Shown in pieces: positions 1 through 34,206 of a DNA stretch of 64,000 nt (within the stretch, counting starts at the first letter, position 1; each line of letters begins with the position of its first letter). The stretch spans positions 4,030,001-4,094,000 of the forward strand of contig NZ_CP113975.1 in assembly GCF_026870155.1 (NCBI RefSeq), read 5' to 3'. The notes under the pieces were generated by a model. That model worked only from the letters and a program-made list of their open reading frames with translations, ran no database searches and had not been told where the DNA came from. Both the position numbers and the translations under genes were made by a program. The DNA is from Flavobacterium marginilacus. GTDB taxonomy: Bacteria; Bacteroidota; Bacteroidia; Flavobacteriales; Flavobacteriaceae.

Positions 1-411
1 TAAAAGTCCTTTTTCCTCATAGAAAAAAGAATGGTTCTCTTTGGCAAAATCCTGATACAATTCTTTGCTCAAAAGCGATAGATGACAAAGTGCCGGCATT
101 GCTTTCTCCACATGCTGTAAATTGGCATGCTTATAAAACTGTAATCCCCATTTCATCAAATCCAGATTTAATCTGGGTTTCACATAGAAAGGACTGTGAC
201 TATCAAACATCCATTTTATCCCTTGGGCAATCATGCCTGGCTGTGCAAGCGGAATTATATGGGACGGCACAATCATTCCTGCATTCCCGTAAGAACAGCC
301 GTCTGTCATATCTGATTTATCAAAAACAGCTACTTCATAGCCTTCTTTGGCTAAATAATAAGCTGAACACAAGCCTATTATTCCTCCGCCTATTATACTT
401 ACTTTTTTCAT
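1..411 (-). CDS. FAD-dependent D-amino acid dehydrogenase (DadA-like), N-terminal part
   Basis: This is the first 137 codons of a gene whose 3' part lies beyond the left edge of the window. The protein opens with an FAD-binding Rossmann motif (MKKVSIIGGGIIGLCSAYYL) followed by the acidic end of the second strand, as in the DAO/DadA family. It lies downstream of a hydroxyproline epimerase on the same strand, with a 72-base gap. The expected reaction is therefore oxidation of cis-4-hydroxy-D-proline to 1-pyrroline-4-hydroxy-2-carboxylate at the inner membrane. The substrate is inferred from neighbours; the family is clear. The catalytic C-terminal half cannot be seen. Confidence 0.85.
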   Translation of the reverse strand, partial: MKKVSIIGGGIIGLCSAYYLAKEGYEVAVFDKSDMTDGCSYGNAGMIVPSHIIPLAQPGMIAQGIKWMFDSHSPFYVKPRLNLDLMKWGLQFYKHANLQHVEKAMPALCHLSLLSKELYQDFAKENHSFFYEEKGLL

Positions 412-483
412 TATTCACATAAATTAAAAAAACATTGGCAGTGATACTTATCCGCAAACCAATTATTTTTCATTACTATTTAC

Positions 484-1494
484 TTAAATCACCTGAAAAC
501 CAAAAGCATACGGATCATCATCTTCATCGATAATAATCGTATTGTAACCATATACTTTTGCCCAGCCCTGAATGCTTGGTACAATAGCACTAATATCTCC
601 TATGGATGTTTCTTCTTCAACCCTTCCGATGAATTTGCTTCCGATAAAACTTTCATGAACATAATCTTCTCCCTTTTTCAATTTTCCTTTGGCATGAAGC
701 TGTGCTATTCTAGCCGAAGTTCCTGTACCGCAGGGAGAACGGTCTATGGCTTTATCTCCGTAAAAAACAGCATTTCTGCCGGATGACGCAGGATCTATCG
801 GTTCTCCTGTCCATAGCATATGACTTACATCACGAATCGTGTCATTTTCAGGATGAATAAAAAGATTTGGATATTTTTCATTAATCCGTTTTCTCACTTC
901 CTGACTGTACTGCACAATTTTTCCAGCCGTAAAATCCTGAATACCTGAAAAATTCTTTTGCGGATCCACAATAGCATAATAATTTCCGCCATAAGCCACA
1001 TCAAAAACAATCTCTCCCAATTCAGGACAATCAACAGTAAGACCTTCGGCTGCCAGATATGATTTTACATTTGTCAAACGAACCCAATCCACCTTTTTTC
1101 CTGTCTGCTGGTATTCAATCTGAACCAGACCGGCAGGAGCTTCCATTTTTATTTTCCCAGGGATTTTGGGTGTAATCAATCCTTCTTCGACGGCAATGGT
1201 TATAGTTCCAATGGTTCCGTGACCGCACATAGGCAGACATCCTGAAGTCTCGATGAATAAAATTCCAATATCATTCTCCGAATTACTCGGCGGATACAAG
1301 ATACTGCCGCTCATCATGTCGTGACCTCTCGGTTCAAACATTAATCCTTTACGGATCCAATCGTATTCTTTTAAAAAATGCTGCCGCTTTTCACTCATGT
1401 TGTTTCCAACAAGATTTGGGCCTCCGCCGGCAACTACTCTTACTGGATTACCGCAAGTATGCGCATCTACACAAAAAAATGTTTTTCTTGGCAT
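484..1494 (-). CDS. 4-hydroxyproline 2-epimerase (proline racemase family)
   Basis: The 336-residue protein converts trans-4-hydroxy-L-proline to cis-4-hydroxy-D-proline in the cytoplasm. Both catalytic cysteines of the family are present: Cys90 in MCGHGTIG and Cys255 in DRSPCGTGT. The N-terminal family signature with DAHTCGNP is also present. Length fits the hydroxyproline epimerases. The gene starts only 3 bases after the stop of the dehydrogenase gene upstream (1498-3066), so they form one operon. Two Cys residues argue for an epimerase and against the Cys/Thr dehydratase branch. Proline racemase is the alternative, but the surrounding pathway genes favour hydroxyproline. Confidence 0.93.
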   Translation of the reverse strand: MPRKTFFCVDAHTCGNPVRVVAGGGPNLVGNNMSEKRQHFLKEYDWIRKGLMFEPRGHDMMSGSILYPPSNSENDIGILFIETSGCLPMCGHGTIGTITIAVEEGLITPKIPGKIKMEAPAGLVQIEYQQTGKKVDWVRLTNVKSYLAAEGLTVDCPELGEIVFDVAYGGNYYAIVDPQKNFSGIQDFTAGKIVQYSQEVRKRINEKYPNLFIHPENDTIRDVSHMLWTGEPIDPASSGRNAVFYGDKAIDRSPCGTGTSARIAQLHAKGKLKKGEDYVHESFIGSKFIGRVEEETSIGDISAIVPSIQGWAKVYGYNTIIIDEDDDPYAFGFQVI

Positions 1495-1497
1495 AAA

Positions 1498-3066
1498 TTA
1501 TATTGGATTCTTTGTTAGTATATCATTTATGGTTCTAGTGATATTCCGCAGATTTTTATCCTGCAGAGCTGCTGGCAGCAATGCATCCGGCCAATCCTGA
1601 TAAGTTACCGGGCGCACCCATCTTTTTACTGAAGTTAATCCCACTGACGTAAATTTACTGTCTGAACTCGCAGGAAATGGTCCGCCGTGTGTCATTCCGG
1701 AACAAACCTCAACTCCCGTAGGAACATTATTAAAAACTAACCTTCCTACTTTATTTTTGAGGTTTTCGATTACTTCCCTGAACTCATCCAATTCTTTTAA
1801 ATCAGAATTTATTATCGTTCCTGTCAGCTGTCCTTCCAAATCATGAATAATTTCATTCAGCTGATCCACATCATCACATTTGACAACAACCGAAAAAGGC
1901 CCGAAAACTTCCTTATGGAATGTTTTATTTTTTAAAAAAGTACCGCCATCAACCGATATTATATTCTGCAGTGCATAATTTGGTTTTATCTCTTTATTCA
2001 AATTGGTCTGCTGTTTATATCCTTCTTGTTCAAGAACTTCTGATTTTAGGTTTTCGTATTGTCTTTTAATATTAGGATGTAACATGCAGGATGGCTCTAA
2101 TTTATCTGTCTCTAAAGCTAAAATAGTAATAAAATCCTCCAATTCCTTGCTGTTTATCCCTAAAATAAGTCCTGGATTTGTACAAAATTGGCCTGTTCCA
2201 GCCGTAATTGATGCAGCATAATTTTTGGCCCATTTTTCGCAGTCTGTTTTTAAAGCTGAAGGCAGAACCAATACTGGATTAATACTTCCCATCTCTGCAT
2301 AAACCGGAATCGGAACGGATCTGTTGGCTGCAATTTTACAAAGTGCTGTACCTCCGTTGATACTTCCTGTAAAACCAACAGCTTTAATTGACGAATGCTC
2401 TACCAGCGCTTTTCCAACAGCAATACCGCTGCTGTTAATATTGGAAAAAACTCCATTTGGCATTCCTGTTCTTTTAGCTGCTTTAATAATGGCTGAAGCA
2501 ACTAATTCTCCCGTTCCGGCATGAAGCGGATGTGATTTTACAATAACAGGACAGCCTGCTGCCAAAGCACTTGCCGTATCGCCACCAGCGGTGGAAAAAG
2601 CAAGCGGGAAATTACTGGCTCCAAAAACTACAACAGGACCAATTGGAATCTGCATTCTCCTAATGTCTGGTTTGCCTTCTGTTTTATTGATAATTGCTTC
2701 CACCCATGAACCTTCTCTCAGCATAGCTGCAAATGCTCTCAATTGTCCGGTTGTTCTGGCACGTTCACCATTGGCCCTTCCGGCAGGAAGACCCGATTCC
2801 TGAACATACGTCACTAATAAATCTTCTCCCAAAGCTTCTATTTCTTCGGCAATGGCTTCTAAAAAAGCAGCTTTTTTTATATCTTCAATAGTTCCGTATA
2901 TTTTAAAAGCGGTTTCTGCCAATGCAGCTGCCTGAGAAATTTCGTCTTCTGTGGCTTCATAAAAAACAGTTTCATTCTCCAGATTTAATTCTGGATTTAT
3001 TGTTCTATATGTCGTTTCCCCTTTTGCGGAAAGCGTATCTCCAATATAATTTTTCCCTGTTATCAT
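1498..3066 (-). CDS. alpha-ketoglutaric semialdehyde (2,5-dioxopentanoate) dehydrogenase
   Basis: This 522-residue NAD(P)-dependent aldehyde dehydrogenase has the catalytic Asn152 (GASNFPLAF), Glu258 (AEMGSINP) and nucleophile Cys295 (TAGTGQFCTNPG). The ASNFPLAFSTAGGDTASALA stretch is typical of the ketoglutaric-semialdehyde branch used in hydroxyproline and pentose/uronate catabolism. It would oxidise 2-oxoglutarate semialdehyde to 2-oxoglutarate, the last step of the pathway encoded here. It sits between the deaminase gene (20-base gap) and the epimerase gene (3-base gap), which supports the substrate. The ATG start has the usual family N-terminus. Confidence 0.92.
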   Translation of the reverse strand: MITGKNYIGDTLSAKGETTYRTINPELNLENETVFYEATEDEISQAAALAETAFKIYGTIEDIKKAAFLEAIAEEIEALGEDLLVTYVQESGLPAGRANGERARTTGQLRAFAAMLREGSWVEAIINKTEGKPDIRRMQIPIGPVVVFGASNFPLAFSTAGGDTASALAAGCPVIVKSHPLHAGTGELVASAIIKAAKRTGMPNGVFSNINSSGIAVGKALVEHSSIKAVGFTGSINGGTALCKIAANRSVPIPVYAEMGSINPVLVLPSALKTDCEKWAKNYAASITAGTGQFCTNPGLILGINSKELEDFITILALETDKLEPSCMLHPNIKRQYENLKSEVLEQEGYKQQTNLNKEIKPNYALQNIISVDGGTFLKNKTFHKEVFGPFSVVVKCDDVDQLNEIIHDLEGQLTGTIINSDLKELDEFREVIENLKNKVGRLVFNNVPTGVEVCSGMTHGGPFPASSDSKFTSVGLTSVKRWVRPVTYQDWPDALLPAALQDKNLRNITRTINDILTKNPI

Positions 3067-3086
3067 GACTTCTTTTTAAGCTTAAA

Positions 3087-4001
3087 TTAAATTTCTTGGT
3101 AAGCAGGCAGAATCGGTCTGTTTTTCATTGCAGCATCAATGATTGCCAGAACACGTTCTCTTTCTATTCCCTGCAGCGGAAGTCTTGGAGCTCTTACATT
3201 TTCTGTTCCAAGTCCTGTGGCTACTTCTGCCAATTTGATATTCTGCACCAGCTGCGGAGAAATATCCAATTCCAGCAGTGGCATAAACCATTTATAAATT
3301 TCTACAGCTTCCTCTATTCTTCCTGCTTTTACGAGTTTATAAATCGCTACGGTTTCTTCCGGATAGGCCACTACCAAACCTGCAACCCATCCGTCAGCAC
3401 CTGTTACCAAACTTTCAAGTGCCAAAGTATCAACACCGCAAAGCACTTTTAATCGATTACCAAAACGATTTCTGATTCGAATTACATTACTGATATCCCT
3501 TGTTGATTCTTTTACCGCCTGAATATTATCCAGTTTTAAAAGTTCTTCAAACATGTCTAATGTCACTTCGATTTTATAATCGACAGGATTGTTATAAATC
3601 ATGATGGGTAATGAAGTACTTTTTGCTATTTCCTTAAAATAGACAACGGTTTCATAATCGGTAGCTTTATACCTCATCGGAGGCAGCAGCATCAAACCAT
3701 TTACGCCTAATTCCTCTGCCCTTTTTGCCAAAGCAACAGCCTCACTGGTAGACTGCTCGGCTATGTTCAAGATAACCGGAATTTTCCCTTCTGCTAATTT
3801 TAAAGTTTCATTAATTAGAACTTCTTTTTCTGCCTTAGTCAATGTACTGGCCTCTCCAAGAGTTCCTCCCAGTATAATTCCATTGACACCAGCTTCGATT
3901 TGAGCTTTAATATTTTTTTCGAACATTACAAGATCTAATTGACCTTCTTCTGTAAACTTGGTAGTTACAGCCGGCATTACGCCTTCCCATTTTATTTTCA
4001 T
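3087..4001 (-). CDS. DapA-family lyase, probable 1-pyrroline-4-hydroxy-2-carboxylate deaminase
   Basis: The 304-residue TIM-barrel protein belongs to the dihydrodipicolinate synthase/N-acetylneuraminate lyase superfamily. The Schiff-base lysine is Lys164 (QAVKEST) and the assisting tyrosine is Tyr136 (IMIYNNP). In the hydroxyproline pathway this family deaminates and dehydrates 1-pyrroline-4-hydroxy-2-carboxylate to 2-oxoglutarate semialdehyde, the substrate of the next gene's enzyme. ATG at 4001 is preferred; an in-frame TTG three codons upstream would add a non-family extension. It is the first gene of the catabolic operon. Lysine-pathway DapA is the alternative but is not supported by context. 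Confidence 0.88.
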   Translation of the reverse strand: MKIKWEGVMPAVTTKFTEEGQLDLVMFEKNIKAQIEAGVNGIILGGTLGEASTLTKAEKEVLINETLKLAEGKIPVILNIAEQSTSEAVALAKRAEELGVNGLMLLPPMRYKATDYETVVYFKEIAKSTSLPIMIYNNPVDYKIEVTLDMFEELLKLDNIQAVKESTRDISNVIRIRNRFGNRLKVLCGVDTLALESLVTGADGWVAGLVVAYPEETVAIYKLVKAGRIEEAVEIYKWFMPLLELDISPQLVQNIKLAEVATGLGTENVRAPRLPLQGIERERVLAIIDAAMKNRPILPAYQEI

Positions 4002-4051
4002 ATATAGCAATTTATTGTTTTTAATCTGTTATATGTAATCCGCATATCATT

Positions 4052-4070
4052 ATTAGTACCTAATACTAAT
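4052..4070. promoter_or_regulatory. inverted repeat between araC-type gene and hydroxyproline operon
   Basis: ATTAGTA-CCTAA-TACTAAT is a perfect 7-base inverted repeat about 50 bases upstream of the deaminase start and upstream of the divergent AraC-type gene. A second, weaker dyad (ATATG ... CATAT) lies at 4031-4047. The 9-mer CTAATACTA in this site (4060-4068) recurs upstream of susC at 11684-11692. It is a candidate binding site for the AraC regulator. Function is inferred; in AT-rich DNA a dyad of this size can arise by chance. Confidence 0.45.
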
Positions 4071-4232
4071 CTGCAGTTATGCGTATTATTCCATAACCTA
4101 TTTTTTTATCAAAAATAAAACTTATACAGGGTGGCCTCTTTGTTATTATTAGCTTATATCAAGACTATATTACCCCATCTATTGCACAATATCATTTTTT
4201 TGATAATATTTACATACTTAAAAAACAAACCA

Positions 4233-5075
4233 TTGAAAATCCTTCCTTTTAAAATACCTAAAACCGAAAGAGAAGCGCTTATTTATCAAGAGGATATTGA
4301 ACGCGTTTTTTACAATCATCTTCACCAGCATGAAGAGATTCAGATAAGCTATATCGTGAAAGGATGCGGCACATTGATAGTGGGAGATTCCATAAACGAT
4401 TATAAAGAAAATGATATTTTAGTGATTGGCGAGAACGTGCCCCATGTTTTTAAAAGTGATGCAGAAACCTGTCCGGAATCAATAATGTTCACTTTGTTTT
4501 TTACAAAAACATCATTCGGCAAAGATTTTTTCAGTCTTAATGACATGAGCAGTGTTGATGATTTTTTTAAGAACTCGGAGTACGGAATCAAAGTTTTGTC
4601 AAACCACAATAAAATCATCCATCATTTTGAAAAATTAAAAAAACAGAATAAAATTCAGCGCATTGCCTCATTTCTAAAAATCATAAACATTATCATAAAC
4701 TCAGAAAAAGCGCCTCTTTCATCATTTATCTATAGAAAAAAATATACTGATGATGAAGGAAGACGAATGAGTGCCGTTTTTGAATATGCTATAGAGTTTT
4801 ATCATCAGAACATTACTTTGGAAGAAGTAGCAGAAAAAGCCAATATGAGTAAAAACGCTTTCTGCAGATATTTTAAAAAACGTACTAACAAAACTTTTTT
4901 TCAGTTTTTGATTGAAATCAGAATTGAAAATGCGTGCAAACTTCTCCATAACAAAAAGGATCTTTCGATTGCTTCCATATCTGAACTCTGCGGATTTCAG
5001 GATATTGCTAATTTCAACAGAAAATTCAAAGAATTAAAAGGGATTTCGCCTTCGCAGTATCGCGGGCAGTTTTAA
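4233..5075 (+). CDS. AraC family transcriptional regulator
   Basis: The protein has an N-terminal cupin-type sensor domain (around LHQHEEIQISYIVKG, then a GENVPHVF loop). A C-terminal pair of helix-turn-helix motifs follows: ITLEEVAEKANMSKNAFCRYF and then SIASISELCGFQDIANFNRKF. It probably senses a hydroxyproline-pathway metabolite and activates the divergent catabolic operon. TTG at 4233 (LKILPFKIPKTE) matches the usual family N-terminus. The longer frame from GTG 4131 would add a hydrophobic leader that the family lacks, so the start is uncertain. The target and effector are inferences from position. Confidence 0.85.
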   Translation: MKILPFKIPKTEREALIYQEDIERVFYNHLHQHEEIQISYIVKGCGTLIVGDSINDYKENDILVIGENVPHVFKSDAETCPESIMFTLFFTKTSFGKDFFSLNDMSSVDDFFKNSEYGIKVLSNHNKIIHHFEKLKKQNKIQRIASFLKIINIIINSEKAPLSSFIYRKKYTDDEGRRMSAVFEYAIEFYHQNITLEEVAEKANMSKNAFCRYFKKRTNKTFFQFLIEIRIENACKLLHNKKDLSIASISELCGFQDIANFNRKFKELKGISPSQYRGQF

Positions 5076-5149
5076 TTTTTTACAAATGCAATAAGCTGCA
5101 GCACAAGTTTCAGAATATAACTGTCCTGTCAGCCTATTACTTATTGTCT

Positions 5150-6736
5150 TTATTTAAAAATAGACTTTCTGATTTCCATCTGCAATGGGGAAGTTTCTGA
5201 TAATTCTTTTATTTCAAAACTTCTTTCAATCAAAGTATCATTTCCAGCGGCAGATTTCATCGGACTTAAATCTATCTGAAGTCCTGCATACTTTAAATAT
5301 CTCTGATAATCAACAGCCTTTACGGTATTTACATAGGTTTTTATTTCGTCCAAAGATTTTCCAGCAATTTGTTCAGAAACCTGCCAAAACTCAGCTTCGG
5401 TAAAACCCCTTCCCTTTTTTTCATAAAATTCGTTATACAAAAAACGCATTACATCGTCCAAAGATTTTTGGTTTCGGGTATTATTTCTGATTTCTAAATC
5501 TAATAAAAGCGCAATTACCGGTCCTTTGTTGTAATATGATATTGTTGTCTGCTTGGCATTGCTTTCGTTGTTGAAAAAGTTCAGCCAAATATCAAAACTG
5601 GAGCGGGATAAGGACATGTGTTTACTGCCTTCAATATTTTCATACCTCTTTATGGATTCAGTGAAATATTTATAGGCATCTTTACTTTCAAGCAGGCCGG
5701 CTCTCATCATGATAATGTATTCATAATAAACAGTAAAACCCTCAGAAACCCATAACATCGACGTGTAATTTTCTTTGTTATAATCAAATGGTCCTAATTC
5801 TATCGGGCGGATTGCTTTTACATTGTAAAGATGAAAATATTCATGGGTTACAAAATTCAAAAAATCCGTATACTCCTCTTTGGATTTAAAATCAAAAGTT
5901 CCATTGGTAAATATAGCTTGGGAATTCCAATGTTCCAGACCTCCTCCGCCAGCTTCCATCATGATAAAACTATAATAATCATAGGGCACTTTTTTCATAA
6001 CAGCCGTTGTGGCTGTCATAATTTTTTTGAGATCCGAGGTAAATTTTTCTTTGTCTAATCCTTGCGGAGACGCAATTCCTAAGGAATATGATTTTCCTTC
6101 GTACTCAAAATCTACTGTCAATTGATTTCCAATATAAACCGGGCTGTCATACAATATGTCAAAATTATTGGCAAAAAAAGTATTTGTTCCTTCTTTTACC
6201 CTTTTCAGTCCGGTTGAAATTTTATTCCATTTTTTATACGGATTAAAAGTTACCTGCACAGGATTATTAATCTGATTTTCGATGTGCATGAAGACATTGT
6301 TAGGCATTATGAAAGCTTTTTCACCATCAGCATACGATTCTGCAACCGATTTTCGATTGGCAAAAAAACGATACGTAATTACAATCTTTCTATGCTTACC
6401 GTTTTCGACCACCCAGTTGTTTTTGGATTTTTTATGCCAAAACAATTTATTCCCGCTGCTATCCATTACATCAAAATCCACGATATGTCTCGGAGTGTCC
6501 AAAATCATGTAATAACCCGGCGACCACACCGGAAGCATAAAACTGGTTTGATTATCTGTCAGTCCTTCGCATTCCAAACGAATATCCAGATAATGCAACT
6601 CTGGCTCTTCCATCGAAACGGTATAATTCATTATGATTGATTTATTGGCAAATGATTCCGCTTTACTCACACTTAAGAATAAAAATGCCAGCAGACATGC
6701 AAAAAATCTAAACTTAAAATCTAATTTTTTCATCAT
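5150..6736 (-). CDS. secreted M61 family (glycyl) aminopeptidase
   Basis: The 528-residue protein has a cleavable signal peptide (about residues 1-25). It carries the M61 zinc site HEYFH (298-302) with a downstream glutamate (WVSEGFTVYYEY) and the upstream GGGGLEHW motif (263-270). M61 enzymes remove N-terminal glycine or alanine from peptides. Many members continue into a C-terminal PDZ domain near 600 residues; this one ends about residue 528 without a recognisable PDZ. It follows susCD on the same strand, which suggests periplasmic trimming of imported glycine-rich peptides. Family is sure; the glycine preference is family knowledge. Confidence 0.88.
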   Translation of the reverse strand: MMKKLDFKFRFFACLLAFLFLSVSKAESFANKSIIMNYTVSMEEPELHYLDIRLECEGLTDNQTSFMLPVWSPGYYMILDTPRHIVDFDVMDSSGNKLFWHKKSKNNWVVENGKHRKIVITYRFFANRKSVAESYADGEKAFIMPNNVFMHIENQINNPVQVTFNPYKKWNKISTGLKRVKEGTNTFFANNFDILYDSPVYIGNQLTVDFEYEGKSYSLGIASPQGLDKEKFTSDLKKIMTATTAVMKKVPYDYYSFIMMEAGGGGLEHWNSQAIFTNGTFDFKSKEEYTDFLNFVTHEYFHLYNVKAIRPIELGPFDYNKENYTSMLWVSEGFTVYYEYIIMMRAGLLESKDAYKYFTESIKRYENIEGSKHMSLSRSSFDIWLNFFNNESNAKQTTISYYNKGPVIALLLDLEIRNNTRNQKSLDDVMRFLYNEFYEKKGRGFTEAEFWQVSEQIAGKSLDEIKTYVNTVKAVDYQRYLKYAGLQIDLSPMKSAAGNDTLIERSFEIKELSETSPLQMEIRKSIFK

Positions 6737-6771
6737 AACTCTTTCTTTTTAAAACAACTTACCTGCAGACC

Positions 6772-6921
6772 CTAATAAGAAGTAAGCAGGTAAGTACCAT
6801 TCAAAATATTTTTTAAAATTCTAAAAAAGAAAGCCATTCCCAATACTATAGGAATGGCTGTCCATACACTTACAAGTAACCAGCTTGCAAAATTTTCATG
6901 CTTTTTAAGATTAAAACTCAT
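6772..6921 (-). CDS. small hydrophobic protein between susD and the M61 gene
   Basis: A 49-codon ATG-to-TAG frame encodes a short charged N-terminus (MSFNLKKHE), one membrane-length hydrophobic segment (about residues 13-33) and a short tail. It lies 52 bases after susD and 35 bases before the peptidase gene, in the same direction, so it would be co-transcribed. A short palindrome (6921-6946) sits just upstream. I do not recognise a family. A small single-pass membrane protein is plausible, but no conservation evidence can be given here and it could be a chance frame. Confidence 0.42.
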   Translation of the reverse strand: MSFNLKKHENFASWLLVSVWTAIPIVLGMAFFFRILKNILNGTYLLTSY

Positions 6922-6973
6922 TTAAACCGTTTTATAACAGTTTAAAAAAATAATCAATAAGCTTTTCTGCTTA

Positions 6974-8575
6974 TTAGTATCCTGGGTTTTGTTTTAAATT
7001 ACTATTCTTATCCATTTCCGACTGTGGTATTGGAAGAATAGCTCTAAAAGCTGCACCAGGATTTTTTACCTTTGAAAACCAAGATTTTGTAGAATACACT
7101 CCAAATCGTATTAAGTCTTGTTTTCTATGTGCTTCTCCAACAAACTCCCAAGCCAATTCATCTAAGAAACCGCCATATTTAATATCAGCACCTCCTTCAT
7201 AATTTGTAATCACTCCAGCTTTGTAGGTTCCATATTTATAAACGCTTCCTCCTAAAAGTTTTGCTCCTGTAACTGTTGCTTTAGCTGGATTGGTGTTTTT
7301 GAAATCTCTTTGTCTAATTTGAGTTACAATAGCTGCTGCTGCATCAGCATCTCCTGTTCTTAATAAACATTCGGCTTTAATCATCATAGCATCTGTTAAT
7401 CTATAAAAAGGAACATCATTACTTCCTTGTCCAATTTCACCAAGCCCAATTTCATATTTAACCATTCTAAAACCTTCGTTAGGCTCACAGCCATTAACAT
7501 CGGTTAAAAAGTTAATATATTCAAATTGTTTACCGTCAACCATTATTGGCTCTCCTTTACTTGTAAACTGTTTGCCACCCAGCCAAGAATCCTTTAATCG
7601 TTGATCATCTGGATCATAGGTATCAATAAATTGAGGAATACCTCCAGAGCCATTCCAAGGACCTCCACTCATGTCAAATGTTGCTTGACTTGGTCCTGCC
7701 AAAGTTTTAAAAGGCCAATAATTTCCCCCCGTCTTTTTTTGGTCAAATGGGATGGATAATATTTCTTCTGAAGATCCCTCATTTTTAATCTTGAAGTTAT
7801 CCAAATAATTAGCTGTCAGACTAAACTTCCCACTATCTATAATATCATTAACTTGAGCTAAAGCCTCATTCCATTTAGGTGTCCCAGTATATACACCAGC
7901 ATTCAAATACAATTTTGCCAAAGTCATTTTAACAGCCCAGGTTGTAACTTTACCATAAGATGTTGGATCATTTTTATCACTTAAATATGGCAAAGCTGTT
8001 TTTAATTCACTTTCTACAAAATCATATACTTCTTTTCCTGTATTTTGTGTAGGCAAATAGCCTTTAGGAACATCAAATTTGGTTACGATTGGCACATTTC
8101 TGAAATTATCTAGCAACAAATAATAATAAATGGCTCTTAAGGCTTTTAGTTCCTGAATTACATTTTCTTTTTTATCAATGCCTTGTATTTGCTCTATTTG
8201 ATAAATAGCCCTGTTAACATTGGTAACTCCTGAGTACAAATAATACCAGTTACCCTCTGCATGAGGCAATGCTGTTCCCCATGTGTGTTGATGCATCGTT
8301 ATATAATAATCTCCCCAGCCAATTCCATTTCGTTGTGGTGTTACTATCAAATCGGATGATTCTTCATAAAGACAGAAAGCCGCATCCCAGCCCCAAAAGA
8401 TATCTCTAAACGAAGTATATGCAGGTGCCATAATACTTGTTAAATCTTCGGAGGTCAATACCGTACTCTCGGCAGATATTTTATCATAAACTGTTTCATC
8501 CAAATCTGTACATCCTGTACCTAAAAGGAACAAGCCTGAAATAAGGATTTTAAAAACTATATTTTTATTTTTCAT
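6974..8575 (-). CDS. SusD/RagB family outer-membrane lipoprotein
   Basis: The 533-residue protein has a lipoprotein signal peptide with lipobox cysteine Cys22 (LGTGCTDLDET). The RagB/SusD tetratricopeptide-type fold is suggested by LRAIYYYLLLDNFRNVPIV and a C-terminal AWEFVGEAHRKQDLIRFG segment, both typical of the family. It would form the surface lid of the SusC channel encoded 11 bases upstream and capture substrate. No glycoside hydrolase is nearby; the neighbours are a peptidase and amino-acid catabolism. A peptide substrate, as for RagAB of Porphyromonas gingivalis, is therefore likelier than a glycan. The substrate is inferred. Confidence 0.92.
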   Translation of the reverse strand: MKNKNIVFKILISGLFLLGTGCTDLDETVYDKISAESTVLTSEDLTSIMAPAYTSFRDIFWGWDAAFCLYEESSDLIVTPQRNGIGWGDYYITMHQHTWGTALPHAEGNWYYLYSGVTNVNRAIYQIEQIQGIDKKENVIQELKALRAIYYYLLLDNFRNVPIVTKFDVPKGYLPTQNTGKEVYDFVESELKTALPYLSDKNDPTSYGKVTTWAVKMTLAKLYLNAGVYTGTPKWNEALAQVNDIIDSGKFSLTANYLDNFKIKNEGSSEEILSIPFDQKKTGGNYWPFKTLAGPSQATFDMSGGPWNGSGGIPQFIDTYDPDDQRLKDSWLGGKQFTSKGEPIMVDGKQFEYINFLTDVNGCEPNEGFRMVKYEIGLGEIGQGSNDVPFYRLTDAMMIKAECLLRTGDADAAAAIVTQIRQRDFKNTNPAKATVTGAKLLGGSVYKYGTYKAGVITNYEGGADIKYGGFLDELAWEFVGEAHRKQDLIRFGVYSTKSWFSKVKNPGAAFRAILPIPQSEMDKNSNLKQNPGY

Positions 8576-8586
8576 TTTAATTCAAT

Positions 8587-11500
8587 TTAGAAAGTTACAT
8601 TTAAACCTAAAGTTATACCAGTAGTACTTGGATATTTATCTCTATTGTCCATCCCCTGTGACAAAGGATCACCTCTTTGTATCTCTGGATCTAAACCTTT
8701 GTATTTGGTAAATGTGGCTAAATTATTTCCAGACACATACAATCGCATTGCATTTATAATCTTAAATGGGGTGACATCGAAATTATAAGATAAAGTAATG
8801 TTGTCTACTTTCACATAATCACCTTTTTCAAGATAATAACTAACATACGTTTGGTTATAATTTAACACCGATTTGCCATACACTTTATCGAATGCACTAT
8901 CTAACATATTGTAAGCAATCGTTGGGTTTTCATAAAACATACGTTGTGTATTTAGTATTTGAAAATCGAAAGCCCCTGTTAAAACCACACTTAAATCGAA
9001 TTTTTTGTAGGTAAAAGTATTCGTCCAGCCTGCCAAATATTTAGGAATACCATTCCCTAAATATTGTTTATTATCATCATTATACATTTCTGTTGTTAGT
9101 GTTTTTCTTGTACCGTCTGGTAATTCAATAATCCATTTTCCATTATCTTCAGGTTTAGACATACCTTGTGTAATATCCACTGATTTTAATCCCCAAAAAT
9201 TACCTATTGATTGCCCTACTTCCAGCCTATGAGTTGCAAATGAGATTGGATCTCCAGTATTCCCTGTATTGACAAATTCGTTCTCTATTGAGTAAAAATC
9301 ATTAGAAAGACTAGTCAACTTATTTTCATTATGAGAAAAAGTCATTGAAGAATTCCATGAAAAATTATCTGTTTTAACTGGAATTGTGTTCAAAAGAATT
9401 TCAAATCCCTTGTTCTCCATTTTACCAACATTTGCAGTAATATTACCAATCAAATTAGGAGGAGTTGGCACATTATAATCCCAAAGCATGTCGCTTGTTT
9501 TTTTGCTATAGACATCAAAGCTTCCACTAATTCTATTATTCAAAAATCCAAAGTCAAGACCAATGTTTACCTCTGCCGTTTTCTCCCAGCGTAAGTCGGG
9601 ATTAGGATTTTGATCAGGAACTAATCCTTTAACCCATTTTCCGTCACTGAAAAAATAACCATCATATCTATACAATGTTTTAGACAAATAAGAACCTCCT
9701 GGAATTACTCCTGTTTCTCCATATCCAGCTCTTAACTTTAAAGCATTAACATAAGATACATCTTTCAAAAATGATTCTTTATTTATACTCCATCCTGCAG
9801 AAACAGCTGGAAAACTACCCCATTTATGATTGTCTCCAAACTTAGAGGAACCTTCTCGCCTAATACTGAACAATAAATCATATTTACTGTCAAAATTATA
9901 GTTAGCTCTACCAAAGAAACCAATTAATTTACTATCACCTTTATAACTTCCCATTGCATATTGATATCCATCTGATATAGCATTTCCAGCGCCTAAATTA
10001 TTATAAGAAAAAGCATCTGTAGGGAAATCATAATTATTGGCAGAAAATCCTTGATTTAATGAATATTGGTAACTATACCCCCCTAAAACCGTAAACTCAT
10101 GTTTGTCAAAAATCTTATGGTATTTAGATGTTATTTCTACATAATCATTATCTGAAGTTCCTGTATCTCTTGAAGCTACTCCATTTCGTTTATTTATAGT
10201 ATTTGAATAATGCTTTTTACTTTCAGAATATCCATTTAAACCTGTATTTTTATTTTTTGACAACTGTGCTCCTACATCCCAGCCTGGCAATAAATCAAGT
10301 GTTAAATTAGCCGTAAATCGTTGCCAAGTATTATTTCTATCTTGTGTTGTTTCATTCATAATGGCAACAGGGTTATAATACTGAAGCTTATTAAGATCTT
10401 CATTATATGTCCCATCTGGATTATATACAGGAGCAGTAGGATTTCTAATCATAGCTTGTCTATAAGCATAGGCAGCTGTTCCTTCTGAAAGCCCCATGTT
10501 TTGTGTACCATTTAATAAGCTTAAATTAATTCTTAACTTATCTTTGAACATGGAATGATTCACATCAAATGAAAATCGGTACTCTTTATTAAAGGTGTTA
10601 ACAAAAACTCCAGACTGATTTACATAATTAAGGTTTACTACATAATTCGTTTTTGCACTTCCACCTTTTAAAGCTAAATTATGATTTTGAGCAAATCCGC
10701 TTCCTGATATTTCGTCTAACCAATCTGTATCAGCTCCACCATCAGCAAAAGGTATTGTCAATCCTTGAGAACGCAAAGCTCTCTGCTGACCAGCATCTAA
10801 AAATTTAGCTTTATTATAAAAGTTAGATATTGTAGCAAATGTCGAATAGGTAATGGTTGGAGCTGTTTCTTTATTAACGGTCTTTGTGGTAATGAGAATT
10901 ACTCCATTGGCTCCTCTTGTTCCATAAATTGCTGCGGCCGAAGCATCTTTCAACACATCTATCGAAGCGATTTCATTTGGAGCAACGGTATCTATACCAC
11001 CTGGAACACCATTAATTAAGACCAAAGGGCCAGTGCTTCCTTTTAAAGTAGAAATTCCACGCAATGAAATATTTGGTCCAGATCCTGGATCTCCAGAACC
11101 ATTGCTAATGGTTAGACCTGCGACTTTGCCTTTAATAAGATCAGAAGCATCATTAATTGCTCCTTTTGTAAAATCTTTTTCTTTTATACTGGCAATGGCA
11201 CTGGTAACTCTTGATTTTTTTTGAGTACCGTATCCTACTACAACTACTTCGGTCAATTCTTGCGTACTACTTGCTAGAAATACTTCAATTTGGCTTTTAT
11301 TTGCAGTTACTACTTCCTTATCTTTAAATCCTATATAAGTAAAAAGCAAATTAGAATTTTCCTTTTTTAGTACAATCTCAAATTTTCCATCAAAATCGGA
11401 CAATACAGAATTGGACATATTCTTTTCTGTAATTGTCACTCCGGATAGAGGTATACCATTATTATCCTTTATTATACCTTTAATTTTCTGCTGTGAAAAT

Positions 11501-11598
11501 GATGCACAAAATACAAACAGAAAAACAACAGTATGAAAAATCTTTTTTCTAAAGAAAAGATTTTCTTTACTTTTAAAACAATACATATTTAGTCTCAT
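8587..11598 (-). CDS. SusC/RagA family TonB-dependent outer-membrane receptor
   Basis: The 1003-residue protein has a signal peptide (about 1-36) and a carboxypeptidase-like regulatory domain (KGIIKDNNGIPLSGVTI). The TonB-box/plug junction reads TEVVVVGYGTQKKS, and the plug ends in the SusC signature DASAAAIYGTRGANGVILITT. A 22-stranded barrel would fill the rest, ending on a hydrophobic aromatic strand (GITLGLNVTF). It imports oligomers using TonB energy and pairs with the SusD gene 11 bases downstream. The ATG at 11598 lies about 37 bases from a candidate promoter. See the locus finding for the likely peptide substrate. Confidence 0.94.
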   Translation of the reverse strand: MRLNMYCFKSKENLFFRKKIFHTVVFLFVFCASFSQQKIKGIIKDNNGIPLSGVTITEKNMSNSVLSDFDGKFEIVLKKENSNLLFTYIGFKDKEVVTANKSQIEVFLASSTQELTEVVVVGYGTQKKSRVTSAIASIKEKDFTKGAINDASDLIKGKVAGLTISNGSGDPGSGPNISLRGISTLKGSTGPLVLINGVPGGIDTVAPNEIASIDVLKDASAAAIYGTRGANGVILITTKTVNKETAPTITYSTFATISNFYNKAKFLDAGQQRALRSQGLTIPFADGGADTDWLDEISGSGFAQNHNLALKGGSAKTNYVVNLNYVNQSGVFVNTFNKEYRFSFDVNHSMFKDKLRINLSLLNGTQNMGLSEGTAAYAYRQAMIRNPTAPVYNPDGTYNEDLNKLQYYNPVAIMNETTQDRNNTWQRFTANLTLDLLPGWDVGAQLSKNKNTGLNGYSESKKHYSNTINKRNGVASRDTGTSDNDYVEITSKYHKIFDKHEFTVLGGYSYQYSLNQGFSANNYDFPTDAFSYNNLGAGNAISDGYQYAMGSYKGDSKLIGFFGRANYNFDSKYDLLFSIRREGSSKFGDNHKWGSFPAVSAGWSINKESFLKDVSYVNALKLRAGYGETGVIPGGSYLSKTLYRYDGYFFSDGKWVKGLVPDQNPNPDLRWEKTAEVNIGLDFGFLNNRISGSFDVYSKKTSDMLWDYNVPTPPNLIGNITANVGKMENKGFEILLNTIPVKTDNFSWNSSMTFSHNENKLTSLSNDFYSIENEFVNTGNTGDPISFATHRLEVGQSIGNFWGLKSVDITQGMSKPEDNGKWIIELPDGTRKTLTTEMYNDDNKQYLGNGIPKYLAGWTNTFTYKKFDLSVVLTGAFDFQILNTQRMFYENPTIAYNMLDSAFDKVYGKSVLNYNQTYVSYYLEKGDYVKVDNITLSYNFDVTPFKIINAMRLYVSGNNLATFTKYKGLDPEIQRGDPLSQGMDNRDKYPSTTGITLGLNVTF

Positions 11599-11634
11599 AA
11601 TTTAACATTTTGGTTAGTGTTATTTGTACACTTG

Positions 11635-11692
11635 TAAAATTATGTTAAATGTTATTTACCAAAAATGCTAATATTACCACATGCTAATACTA
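11635..11692 (-). promoter_or_regulatory. candidate susC promoter with upstream direct repeat
   Basis: Read on the minus strand, TTTG (11660-11663) and TAATTTTA (11635-11642) are separated by 17 bases, close to the Bacteroidota consensus TTTG/TAnnTTTG with one mismatch. Directly upstream, ATGCTAATA occurs twice on the plus strand (11665-11673 and 11681-11689), a 16-base period suited to an AraC-type activator. CTAATACTA at 11684-11692 also occurs at 4060-4068. The rest of 11693-12024 is AT-rich spacer in which I see no gene. Confidence 0.45.
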
Positions 11693-12024
11693 TATTATCC
11701 TGTTTTAAGCCGTATTGCAGCATTTTACAGAAATATCAGTTTATTTGATAACGAATTAGAGTTATACTTGCATATAATGAAGCTTTTTGAAGAAAAATCA
11801 AGATAATAAACATACGCTAAAGCCCGAAACATTCAGATCAGGTTACCCTGTGGAATTTTAGAACCTTTATTAATGTGAAAGGATTTAACCAAGTTTTAAA
11901 TCAAAGTGAAGAAATATTGACATTATAGTTTTTTGCATCAATTCATTAAATTTTGAATCCATTTTTTATTAATGGGTAAACATCGCAAATGAACTACGGA
12001 ATACGATTAGACAACAATATTTCT

Positions 12025-12819
12025 CTAACGAATATTACTTACTGAATTTTTAGCTGTATCGTGTTTTGTTTTCAGAACACCTTTCTCAACAGAAAAACCT
12101 ATTCGGACTTGTGTTTTTAAGGTATCTTTTAAACCGGATGTTGCTTTTTCGATTATAATAAATACTAATTGATATTCACCGTCAGTTAAATCAATTACAG
12201 TATTTTTTTCAGAATCATTGATTTTCAAAACATTTTTTTCAGAATCCGGTTTTGCAGTTCTTCCCGTTGCAGCATACGAAGCCGATGCAGCACCGCTTCC
12301 GCCGCCGGCTAAACTGCTTATACTTGAAACCGCTGCTGAAATAATCGCTCCGCCCGGCATAGCACCTCCTAATAAAGAAGCTCCCTGCGACAAAACACTG
12401 CCTGCTGCATGTAAGCCTTGATTCACTTTTTCGCCAAAGGCTGCACATTCAGTGCTGGTCAATTCCTTAATGCTATTGTTTGCTGTATTGACTCTGTAAC
12501 CCTCATTGGAAGGAAACAAAACAATGCATCCGCCATCGATCAGTGTTACATTTATTTTTCCCGAATTTACTTTTTCGCCAAAAGATGCTCCCTGCGTCTG
12601 CTTTGCAACTGTAACATTCATCGAGATCCTGTTTGGCATCCCGCTATTGTTTATGCCGTTTATATTACTTTTTTGAGCAGATCCGTCTAAAGTGGTTTCC
12701 AAACTGGAACTTGATTTTATCGTTTTTTCTTTTACTGTTTCGATATCTTGTCCCTTTACATTTACCAAATAACACAATGCTAATGCCATTGTAAAAACTG
12801 AAGTCTTAAAATTTTTCAT
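12025..12819 (-). CDS. secreted protein of unknown function
   Basis: A 264-residue protein with a signal peptide (about 1-23, ending NVKGQ). I do not recognise the family. Visible features are a Gly/Ala/Ser-rich low-complexity middle (about 140-185, with GGAMPGG and LAGGGSGAASASY) and a repeated motif FGEKVN-x-G near residues 81 and 128. A C-terminal beta-rich part (TDGEYQLVFIIIEKA ... TQVRIGFSVEKG) follows. The gene stands alone, with a terminator for the next operon about 165 bases upstream. Exported location is reasonably sure; no role can be assigned. Confidence 0.75.
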   Translation of the reverse strand: MKNFKTSVFTMALALCYLVNVKGQDIETVKEKTIKSSSSLETTLDGSAQKSNINGINNSGMPNRISMNVTVAKQTQGASFGEKVNSGKINVTLIDGGCIVLFPSNEGYRVNTANNSIKELTSTECAAFGEKVNQGLHAAGSVLSQGASLLGGAMPGGAIISAAVSSISSLAGGGSGAASASYAATGRTAKPDSEKNVLKINDSEKNTVIDLTDGEYQLVFIIIEKATSGLKDTLKTQVRIGFSVEKGVLKTKHDTAKNSVSNIR

Positions 12820-19195: not shown

Positions 19196-19293
19196 GGAGC
19201 TTAATCCAGCTGTTCACTGCAAATGCAATTCACTGAACTCCTATGAAAATAAAAGTTAGTGAAGTAATAATTTCCACTTCCATCTGGGCTAGG
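19196..19293. repeat. dispersed intergenic repeat, copy 1
   Basis: It begins GGAGCTTAATCCAGCTGTTC and ends CCACTTCCATCTGGGCTAGG. The same borders, GGAGCTAAATCCAGCTGTCC and CCACTCCCATCTGGGCTAAG, flank copy 2 at 33939-34015, while the centre differs. The copies have a conserved outer frame and a variable core. The remainder of the 18890-19318 spacer shows only the promoter and terminator listed. Confidence 0.7.
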
Positions 19294-19318
19294 GCATTCA
19301 TTTTCAAAACAACATTTA

Positions 19319-25544: not shown

Positions 25545-25989
25545 CAAACAAAAATCTACACTATAAAGCTGATGTTTATTTATATTTAACTGCTTTTGAG
25601 TCATTAAATGTAATTTTATCTTTGCGTTCATTAAACTTATAGAACTTACATATCAAAATCTTTATTTTTTCGTTCAAGGCTTTGTTCCTATTCATTTAAA
25701 TATTAATTTCACGACTCCAAAAACAAGCTAACGTATAAGCTCTAAATTGTACTAAATAGGAACATATCGCTATGTAAAAATCTAAATTATTACAAAAATA
25801 AAACAGAGCGGATAATATTATTTAACTTTTTGTGTTTTAGAAAGTATAAAGACAATTAATATAACTTTTTTTACAATATTCTTAAATGTCAAAAATTTGA
25901 CTTTGGAAAAAAATATTTTAATAACAATAATATGGGATCGCCGAAAACCATAAAGAGTAGGCAAATATTAAATTAAATAATAACATAAA

Positions 25990-33938: not shown

Positions 33939-34015
33939 GGAGCTAAATCCAGCTGTCCGTTATATCTGTGTGCCTGAACCCCAGGCACACAGGATGCCAC
34001 TCCCATCTGGGCTAA
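33939..34015. repeat. dispersed intergenic repeat, copy 2
   Basis: The borders match copy 1 at 19196-19293. The core is a perfect hairpin: CTGTGTGCCTG (33966-33976), loop AACCC, CAGGCACACAG (33982-33992). The rest of the 33768-34206 spacer is AT-rich, without a gene or clear promoter. Confidence 0.72.
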
Positions 34016-34206
34016 GTAGAACATTAGGAATTTTAAGAACTTTTAGCTTAAAATTGTTCTTTGACGATTTGTAAAAAATTGTTTATATATTAGCATTAAA
34101 GAAAGTTTGGTATTTATTGTATTTTTTTAAACCGATTCAGCCCATTTGATTTTACTTTTATCAGACATATTGACAAGTTAGTGACCATTTTTTAAACATA
34201 GCTTTA

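Follow-up and report, generated by a model that had tools for sequence, protein, structure and literature searches.

A SusCD locus joined to hydroxyproline catabolism in Flavobacterium marginilacus and its probable use of plant hydroxyproline-rich glycoproteins

Organization of the cluster

The window considered here is the whole of a 64,000 nucleotide stretch of Flavobacterium marginilacus DNA, positions 4030001-4094000 of contig NZ_CP113975.1 (C1 below), in a genome of 5.3 Mb. Across its left edge, and beyond it by about 19.5 kb, runs a cluster of 17 genes and 31 kb that combines a SusC/SusD pair, glycosidases and peptidases with genes for the catabolism of hydroxyproline (Hyp). Judging by what its sequences encode, it is quite likely a locus for the utilisation of hydroxyproline-rich glycoproteins (HRGPs) of plants, most likely extensins. 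Since the window truncates the cluster, the left-hand glycosidase and peptidase genes were invisible to the first-pass annotation, which proposed collagen as the substrate.

The Hyp genes are on the minus strand. Step 1 is that of the 4-hydroxyproline epimerase, HypE (484-1494), which has the Cys motifs and scores 592.7 bits with NF010578, the equivalog model for this enzyme (cut-off 376). The enzyme for step 2, a D-hydroxyproline dehydrogenase-type FAD enzyme of the DAO family, had been placed at the left edge and does lie there: it occupies 1..411 of the window, is cut by its left edge and is complete outside it (411 aa; whole gene C1:4029176-4030411). For step 3 there is a HypD-type deaminase of the DHDPS family (3087-4010, PF00701), in its conserved position in Hyp operons, and for step 4 a ketoglutarate-semialdehyde-type dehydrogenase of the ALDH family (1498-3066, PF00171). 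The enzymes of steps 2 to 4 are of the expected superfamilies and in the conserved order, with no NCBIfam model above cut-off among the matches listed. The four gene types have the same order in other Flavobacteriaceae. Among named genomes, the most similar semialdehyde dehydrogenase (98%) is that of Flavobacterium sp. HJJ, which seems to belong to the same species. A second proline-racemase-family gene is present in 13 HypE-bearing Flavobacterium genomes (G004, G006, G030 and others), in some of them on the same contig and near the Hyp locus; it scores about 260-274 bits with the HypE model, below cut-off, and perhaps serves trans-3-hydroxyproline or proline.

Between the M61 gene and hypD, on the plus strand, is the gene for an AraC-family regulator (4131-5075, PF12833). 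Its true start is probably near 4233, because AraC relatives begin at MKxxPFK. The M61 peptidase (5150-6736, minus strand, PF17899 and PF05299) has an HEYFH motif and a signal-like start (signal sequences were judged from N-termini by eye). M61 peptidases prefer Gly or Ala. The gene is missing from several loci that keep SusCD and GH146 (L025/L042, L038, L040, L043, L044 and L046), which makes it accessory, and it was dropped as the defining enzyme of the system.

The SusC/SusD pair is also on the minus strand. SusD (6974-8575, PF07980 and PF14322) is a predicted surface lipoprotein and binding lid, and SusC (8587-11598) a predicted TonB-linked outer-membrane importer that scores 724 bits with TIGR04056, above its cut-off. 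The two genes are 11 bp apart, the tandem arrangement that characterizes SusCD polysaccharide utilisation loci (PULs). The linked carbohydrate-active enzymes of such loci are represented too, by GH146-type, GH43 and GH36 proteins and, in relatives, by GH42 and GH97. Open reading frames and family matches thus bear out the first-pass placement of SusC, SusD, M61, AraC and the Hyp operon. A small open reading frame had also been listed, by which a 49-codon frame at 6772-6921 was probably meant. The frame is there; because it is overlapped by an 11 bp hairpin and T-run in the susD-M61 spacer (6832-6859, minus strand, partly conserved in relatives), a gene is less likely here than an untranslated spacer that holds a terminator or attenuator. 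Terminator-like sites overall are not in excess (8 found against 7.7 expected from shuffles).

The remaining nine genes are left of the window, on the same strand as the Hyp genes, and the run from GH36 to hypD consists of 13 genes on this single strand, spaced by 3-188 bp. Going outward from the D-hydroxyproline dehydrogenase gene there are an APC (amino-acid) permease (C1:4027572-4028987), an S9/DPPIV-type peptidase with solved relatives (C1:4025151-4027406), a LamG/Big_4/GH146-type beta-L-arabinofuranosidase whose GH127-clan domain also has solved relatives (C1:4022045-4025098), a DUF885 protein (C1:4020318-4022009), a DUF5695 protein (C1:4017564-4020254), a GH43 protein (C1:4015413-4017557), an M24 prolidase (C1:4014157-4015368), a DUF6055 metallopeptidase with a gluzincin motif and a weak match to the Svx model (C1:4012759-4014099), and a GH36 protein (C1:4010505-4012700).

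Association of the SusCD pair with the hydroxyproline genes

The genus was sampled with 199 Flavobacterium genomes, that of the window included. HypE is above cut-off in 31 of them, and below it in a 32nd. Their Hyp loci have mainly three arrangements, A, B and C, plus a few that are partial or mixed. In class A, the window's type, GH146, S9 and APC genes flank the Hyp core, with SusCD on the opposite side where the stretch allows. Class B has M61, APC, DUF885 and S9 in a different order. In class C there are DPPIV and aminopeptidase P genes, frequently joined by SusC with another SusD family or by an M43 protease.

With the window SusD as query, 13 of the 199 genomes gave matches at E 1e-80 or below. 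All nine orthologues of at least 80% identity (its own genome counted) are 4-13 kb from hypE, five in class A and four in class B. The other four matches are one of 66%, on a separate contig of the class A genome G162, and three of 42-46% in genomes without HypE. That SusCD and the Hyp genes form one locus, as first annotated, is upheld by this conservation through two gene orders. Since the synteny survives rearrangement and a promoter-proximal site is common to both halves (see below), it is strongly supported that SusCD and Hyp catabolism are one system.

The glycosidase set moves with this system. DUF885, DUF5695, GH43 and GH36 genes are kept in all five class A relatives examined and the M24 prolidase in four of them. 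In class B the Hyp genes have GH146, DUF5695, GH43 and GH97 on their far side in 4/4 genomes. A GH42 gene is present in 3/5 class A and 2/4 class B genomes (none is there in the window's genome). Among the Flavobacterium loci L035-L050, 15 of 16 have a GH127-clan gene and 12 of 16 have SusC. In F. daejeonense (L049), SusC, SusD and GH127 are consecutive and adjoin the Hyp genes.

Neither a GH127-clan gene nor SusC was found in any of the 64 loci of other Flavobacteriaceae (L051-L114), whose genera are mostly marine. Full-length DUF885, counted there by matches of 50-70 bits to a purpose-built profile and confirmed with Pfam for L100, is in or beside the Hyp operon in 31 of these 64, often directly after the semialdehyde dehydrogenase. 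Its position at Hyp operons that lack SusCD and GH127-clan genes hints that DUF885 is a Hyp-peptide peptidase.

Outside the family the association recurs. GH127-clan genes are present in 7/55 loci of other families (stretches up to 20 kb), and 11 GH127/146 genes are within 15 kb of hypE where 0.5 would be expected, in 9 of the 55 genomes and five genera. The expectation derives from a hand count of about 75 GH127/146 genes in 32 genomes (76 were entered in the calculation), and no Poisson probability was taken, since a single genus supplies four of the nine genomes and a second one two. In Spirosoma, a plasmid of a rice-grain isolate carries SusD, SusC, AraC, three Hyp genes, one GH127-type and one GH146-type gene, a permease and DUF885.

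A putative regulator site common to both halves

The 15 bp sequence GGNTAATATAGTNTT has exactly two copies in the 64 kb, both on the minus strand. One (4161-4175) is before the Hyp operon (hypD), inside the over-long AraC frame and upstream of its probable true start; the other (11686-11700) precedes susC by about 90-100 bp, and 21 bp on from it there is another, partial copy. The count in 100 shuffles was 0, a test that is descriptive because the pattern was built after both copies had been seen. Allowing two mismatches gives 6 matches versus 3.3 expected.

Independent support comes from conservation among relatives. GGTAATATAGT precedes hypD in all 21 class A-type rows, and the site or a close variant is at -102 or -103 of SusC in all 16 SusC rows, some rows being duplicates. 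(L041/L026, L042/L025, L047/L012, L036/L021, L035/L172 and L048/L010 were taken as identical genomes and count double in the mixed-set site counts.) One-mismatch copies in class B precede SusC in 4/4 genomes, GH146 in 4/4 and HypD in 2/4. A slightly looser pattern with one mismatch has 104 matches across 77 stretches of Flavobacterium. Of these, 89 are intergenic and at most 260 bp from a gene start, and precede HypD (41), SusC (19), S9 (18), GH146 (4), DUF6055 (1) and others (6). In four class C loci the site is 436-517 bp upstream of the GH36 gene. The 64 loci of other Flavobacteriaceae have 48 matches, 34 of them before HypD under the same two conditions, and 63 stretches of other families have 6, two of them before HypD. 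A control of 41 stretches of the window's genome (L187-L227) had 0 matches, a weak control as most of these include no more than about 100 bases upstream of susC. Upstream of the M61 gene the motif TAATAT[AT] was found in none of nine rows save three (L011, L012 and L047), in a different place and context.

From its distribution across Flavobacterium, other Flavobacteriaceae and other families, the site resembles an operator that ancestrally served the Hyp operon of Flavobacteriaceae and was later extended to SusCD and glycosidase genes. The linked AraC protein would be the one to bind it.

Kinship of SusC

The first-pass annotation had likened the pair to RagAB of Porphyromonas. That is a SusCD-type pair too, but the window SusC scores 384 bits with 8aa4 and 264 with 5t3r, the solved structures to which it is closer, against 211 with RagA, and the RagAB kinship was abandoned.

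The window SusC is 43-92% identical to 22 relatives, all of which, save L183, are in Hyp or GH127 loci. The closest of 39 paralogues in its own genome is 35% identical over 1024 columns (one match of 216 residues reaches 40%). In a tree of 83 sequences, made by a quick method with SH-aLRT support, 18 class A and B SusC proteins form one clade (support 98; L180 is included though the contig end there holds no hypE), nested in a clade of 23 rows (100). Four of the sister five have a GH127 gene nearby: those of L185 and L186 are beside GH127 and Hyp genes, that of L182 directly beside GH127 only, and that of L181, again with no Hyp genes, is in one run with GH127 at a distance of two genes; L183 has neither.

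SusC of class C forms a distant, separate clade (support 100). Because it is so far from the window's, Hyp loci seem to have acquired SusCD on more than one occasion. Class C loci (L008, L013, L017, L023 and others) combine their different SusC/SusD-like_2 pair with DPPIV, aminopeptidase P and secreted M43 proteases, and their substrate may be another Hyp protein. In the class A species of L039, L040 and L045, divergent SusCD genes occupy the same place (SusC about 50% identical), as if replaced or fast-evolving.

The glycosidases and peptidases, and the substrate

Compared with solved structures, the GH146-type protein scores 219 bits with 5opj, which we take to be BT0349, 141 with 8k7y and 140 with 8k7x, and at most 73 with the rest. 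It keeps the Glu-x-Cys (ETC) and Cys-Cys (CC) motifs of the Cys3-Glu zinc site in alignments, and by its sequence is of the GH146 type, nearer to GH146 than to GH127 enzymes. 8k7y and 8k7x are one enzyme family, taken by their titles as the Bifidobacterium longum GH146 of PMC10850190, in which XeHypBA1 and Bll4HypBA1, both GH146, are described as acting on Araf-beta1-Hyp (Araf, arabinofuranose). According to PMC6085000, Ara-Hyp is the substrate preferred by XeHypBA1, the alpha-1,3-Ara of Ara4-Hyp is handled by GH43, and xehypAA has a gene for a prolyl oligopeptidase beside it.

Three families that contain alpha-galactosidases occur at Hyp loci. GH36 is present in the window's genome, in 5/5 class A relatives and at four class C loci. 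GH97 is found in 4/4 class B genomes, and the one scanned scores 734 bits with a retaining alpha-galactosidase model (cut-off 800). A GH27 alpha-galactosidase-type gene is between GH127 and hypD in L121 and L122, and not in L123 and L125 of the same genus.

The DUF6055 protein has the motif HEXXHX(19)E (HELGH...E at residue 163), which fits the HEXXHX(8,28)E of the Svx family. This motif and a predicted recognition of alpha-Gal-Ser are described for Svx in PMC9266454 and PMC10815107, and in PMC13164431 Svx degraded a carrot extensin fraction and spared mucin and concanavalin A. The DUF6055 protein was not assigned to the Svx/AvrXca family, having 55 of the 625 bits required; it may work like Svx.

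DUF5695 is above cut-off in 11 of the 199 Flavobacterium genomes (12 at E 0.001 or below), all 11 with HypE, and in 9/9 genomes with both genes on one contig it is at most 25 kb from hypE. In the phylum it is in 14 of 395 genomes, of which 10 have HypE above cut-off, eight of them with the two genes within 25 kb (G351 and G668 are the others). No PDB sequence matched its profile at E up to 5. It likely acts in the breakdown of Hyp-rich glycoproteins, and is a candidate new enzyme.

Extensin carries alpha-galactose on Ser and one to five arabinofuranoses (beta- and alpha-linked) on Hyp (PMC5371791). The extensin assignment draws on the match of the enzyme set to Ser-alpha-Gal, alpha-1,3-Ara, beta-Ara-Hyp and a Hyp-rich backbone, on the company that this set keeps with the Hyp and SusCD genes in both gene orders, and on the alpha-galactosidase-containing families at Hyp loci. 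It is further favoured by the surplus of GH127/146 genes near hypE in other genera, by the Spirosoma plasmid, by the SusC kin near GH127, by the site common to both transcription units and by an L-arabinose isomerase family gene elsewhere in the genome (C1:4986146). Plant-related names (Root420, soyae, panacis, glycines) are found among the carriers.

Several observations weigh against this assignment. GH36, GH43, GH42 and GH97 are frequent in many PULs. No NCBIfam model that names a substrate is above cut-off for the glycosidases or the DUF6055 protein of the cluster: the GH36 protein reaches 75 of 1100 required bits with a model for beta-L-arabinopyranosidase, its sole match, the GH146 protein 96 of 950 with one for aceric acid hydrolase, the GH43 protein at most 30 bits with arabinan endo-arabinosidase models, and the DUF6055 protein 55 bits (E 5.7e-15) with the Svx/AvrXca model NF040510, below its cut-off of 625. 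Four of the 14 DUF5695-positive genomes of the phylum have no HypE match. The regulator site was not found in the class B HypD promoters of L009 and L014, nor in the GH127-bearing Hyp loci scanned outside Flavobacteriaceae (L115, L122, L126, L154, L185 and L186), and before the S9 gene of the window's own genome it is degenerate. Some class A species have fish names (piscis, salmonis), others plant names. Finally, 5opj, the nearest solved GH146, is from a rhamnogalacturonan-I PUL, and Bll3HypBA1, a GH146 enzyme with LamG domains, acts on arabinogalactan protein (AGP) and arabinan (both PMC10850190).

That the locus degrades AGPs, or a mixture of HRGPs, and not extensin in particular is possible, though on balance unlikely. 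Relatives add GH42 beta-galactosidase-type genes, and the Gly/Ala preference of M61 would suit Ala-Hyp repeats. The GH146 enzyme with AGP activity, Bll3HypBA1, likewise has LamG domains, and the sole, weak NCBIfam match of the GH36 protein is to an arabinopyranosidase, arabinopyranose being an AGP sugar (PMC10850190). GH30, one of the core AGP enzymes according to the same source, did not appear among the scanned cluster genes (the GH43 subfamily was not determined), however, and alpha-galactosidase-type genes and an Svx-like peptidase suit extensin better.

Use of collagen or gelatin peptides, the substrate first proposed, is very improbable in spite of the M61, DPPIV-type and prolidase-type peptidases, which together with the Hyp pathway would also suit Gly-Pro-Hyp peptides. 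Six glycosidase families are in the cluster or in the Hyp loci of relatives (GH146, GH43, GH36, GH42, GH97 and GH27), a set that fits plant glycans, GH127/146 genes repeatedly adjoin Hyp genes in other genera, and the SusC kin are near GH127. The collagen proposal was dropped after these comparisons of gene content, synteny and SusC kinship. A search of the genome for M9 collagenase gave no match, and likewise matched in no control genome.

There is, similarly, little chance that an ordinary arabinan or rhamnogalacturonan PUL lies beside a Hyp operon by accident. GH43, GH146, GH36 and GH42 do occur in pectin side-chain PULs, 5opj is the nearest solved GH146, and the weak NCBIfam matches of the GH43 protein are to arabinanases. 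Coincidence is nevertheless hard to reconcile with SusD and Hyp genes being together in 9/9 orthologous loci through two gene orders, with the recurrence of the association in other families and with a regulator site common to both halves.

Proposed pathway from extensin to 2-oxoglutarate

From the gene content, synteny, catalytic motifs and shared conserved site we infer the enzyme activities, their localisation, the inducer and the extensin assignment. Extensin use would begin with the glycoprotein being opened by an exported Svx-like DUF6055 peptidase together with the glycosidases: GH36 would remove the alpha-Gal of Ser, GH43 the terminal alpha-1,3-Ara, and GH146, perhaps with DUF5695, the beta-Ara chain on Hyp. 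SusCD would import the glycopeptides, and S9 (DPPIV-type), DUF885, M24 and M61 peptidases in the periplasm would trim the Pro/Hyp-rich peptides. Hyp or small products would be taken up by the APC permease, and Hyp converted to 2-oxoglutarate by the epimerase, D-hydroxyproline dehydrogenase, deaminase and dehydrogenase in turn, while arabinose would reach central metabolism through genes elsewhere, such as that for the isomerase at C1:4986146. The AraC regulator would sense a Hyp-related signal and bind the one site before both transcription units.

A stronger version is more tentative, if still plausible. The locus would be a complete one for mineralising extensin, taking both glycan and backbone Hyp to central metabolism within one AraC regulon; DUF5695 would be a new, so far unclassified enzyme of the pathway, possibly doing the beta-L-arabinobiosidase job of GH121, and DUF6055 an extensin-directed peptidase.

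Relation to known systems

SusCD PULs of Bacteroidota, such as those for arabinan and AGP in Bacteroides, resemble the cluster in their SusC/SusD pair, linked glycosidases and linked regulator. The cluster differs in adding proline-type peptidases and a Hyp operon with which the AraC regulator would be shared. Conversely, it has all four gene types of the bacterial trans-4-hydroxyproline pathway and extends the plain operon by peptidases, glycosidases and SusCD. Hyp-linked L-arabinofuranosides are also removed, with GH43 and GH146/127-type enzymes, by HypBA1/HypBA2/HypAA of B. longum and XeHypBA1/BA2/AA of Xanthomonas (PMC10850190, PMC6085000, PMC7263609). The Xanthomonas system is like the cluster in its nearby prolyl oligopeptidase gene, whereas that of B. 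longum differs in having an ABC transporter; Hyp catabolism, alpha-galactosidase and SusCD do not figure in the available parts of these descriptions. The gluzincin HEXXHX(n)E motif and a weak model match connect the DUF6055 protein with the Svx/AvrXca extensin peptidases of soft-rot bacteria and Xanthomonas, but it is far under the model cut-off and sits in a nutrient locus of Flavobacterium. For Latescibacteria, HRGP use was proposed from GH127 genes, with no Hyp operon mentioned in the available part of PMC4454575.

As a SusCD utilisation locus the cluster is of a known kind; its union with Hyp-glycoprotein deglycosylation and backbone catabolism was not found described. A literature search, which left subscription journals outside and so is not proof, found no locus uniting SusCD, Hyp-arabinoside glycosidases and Hyp catabolism. 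Extensins are structural proteins of the plant wall, and the published bacterial routes found end at arabinose release or with a single protease. A single locus that covers deglycosylation, uptake, proline-type peptidases and the oxidation of Hyp would explain extensin use by some Flavobacterium and other Bacteroidota. It gives a testable substrate for SusCD pairs with unknown cargo, suggests a part in Hyp-rich glycoprotein breakdown for DUF5695, DUF885 and DUF6055, and means that Hyp genes beside SusCD need not signify collagen.

Other features of the window

On the minus strand, an open reading frame of 264 codons at 12025-12819 begins with a signal-like sequence and matches nothing in Pfam or NCBIfam at E 0.001; of the loci L035-L114, L035 alone, taken as the same species, has a labelled match to it. 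A DUF805b cis-regulatory RNA match at 25931-25963 (plus strand) is barely over its gathering score. The Flavo-1 RNA family has two matches above gathering score, at 19199-19294 and 33942-34017, both on the minus strand.

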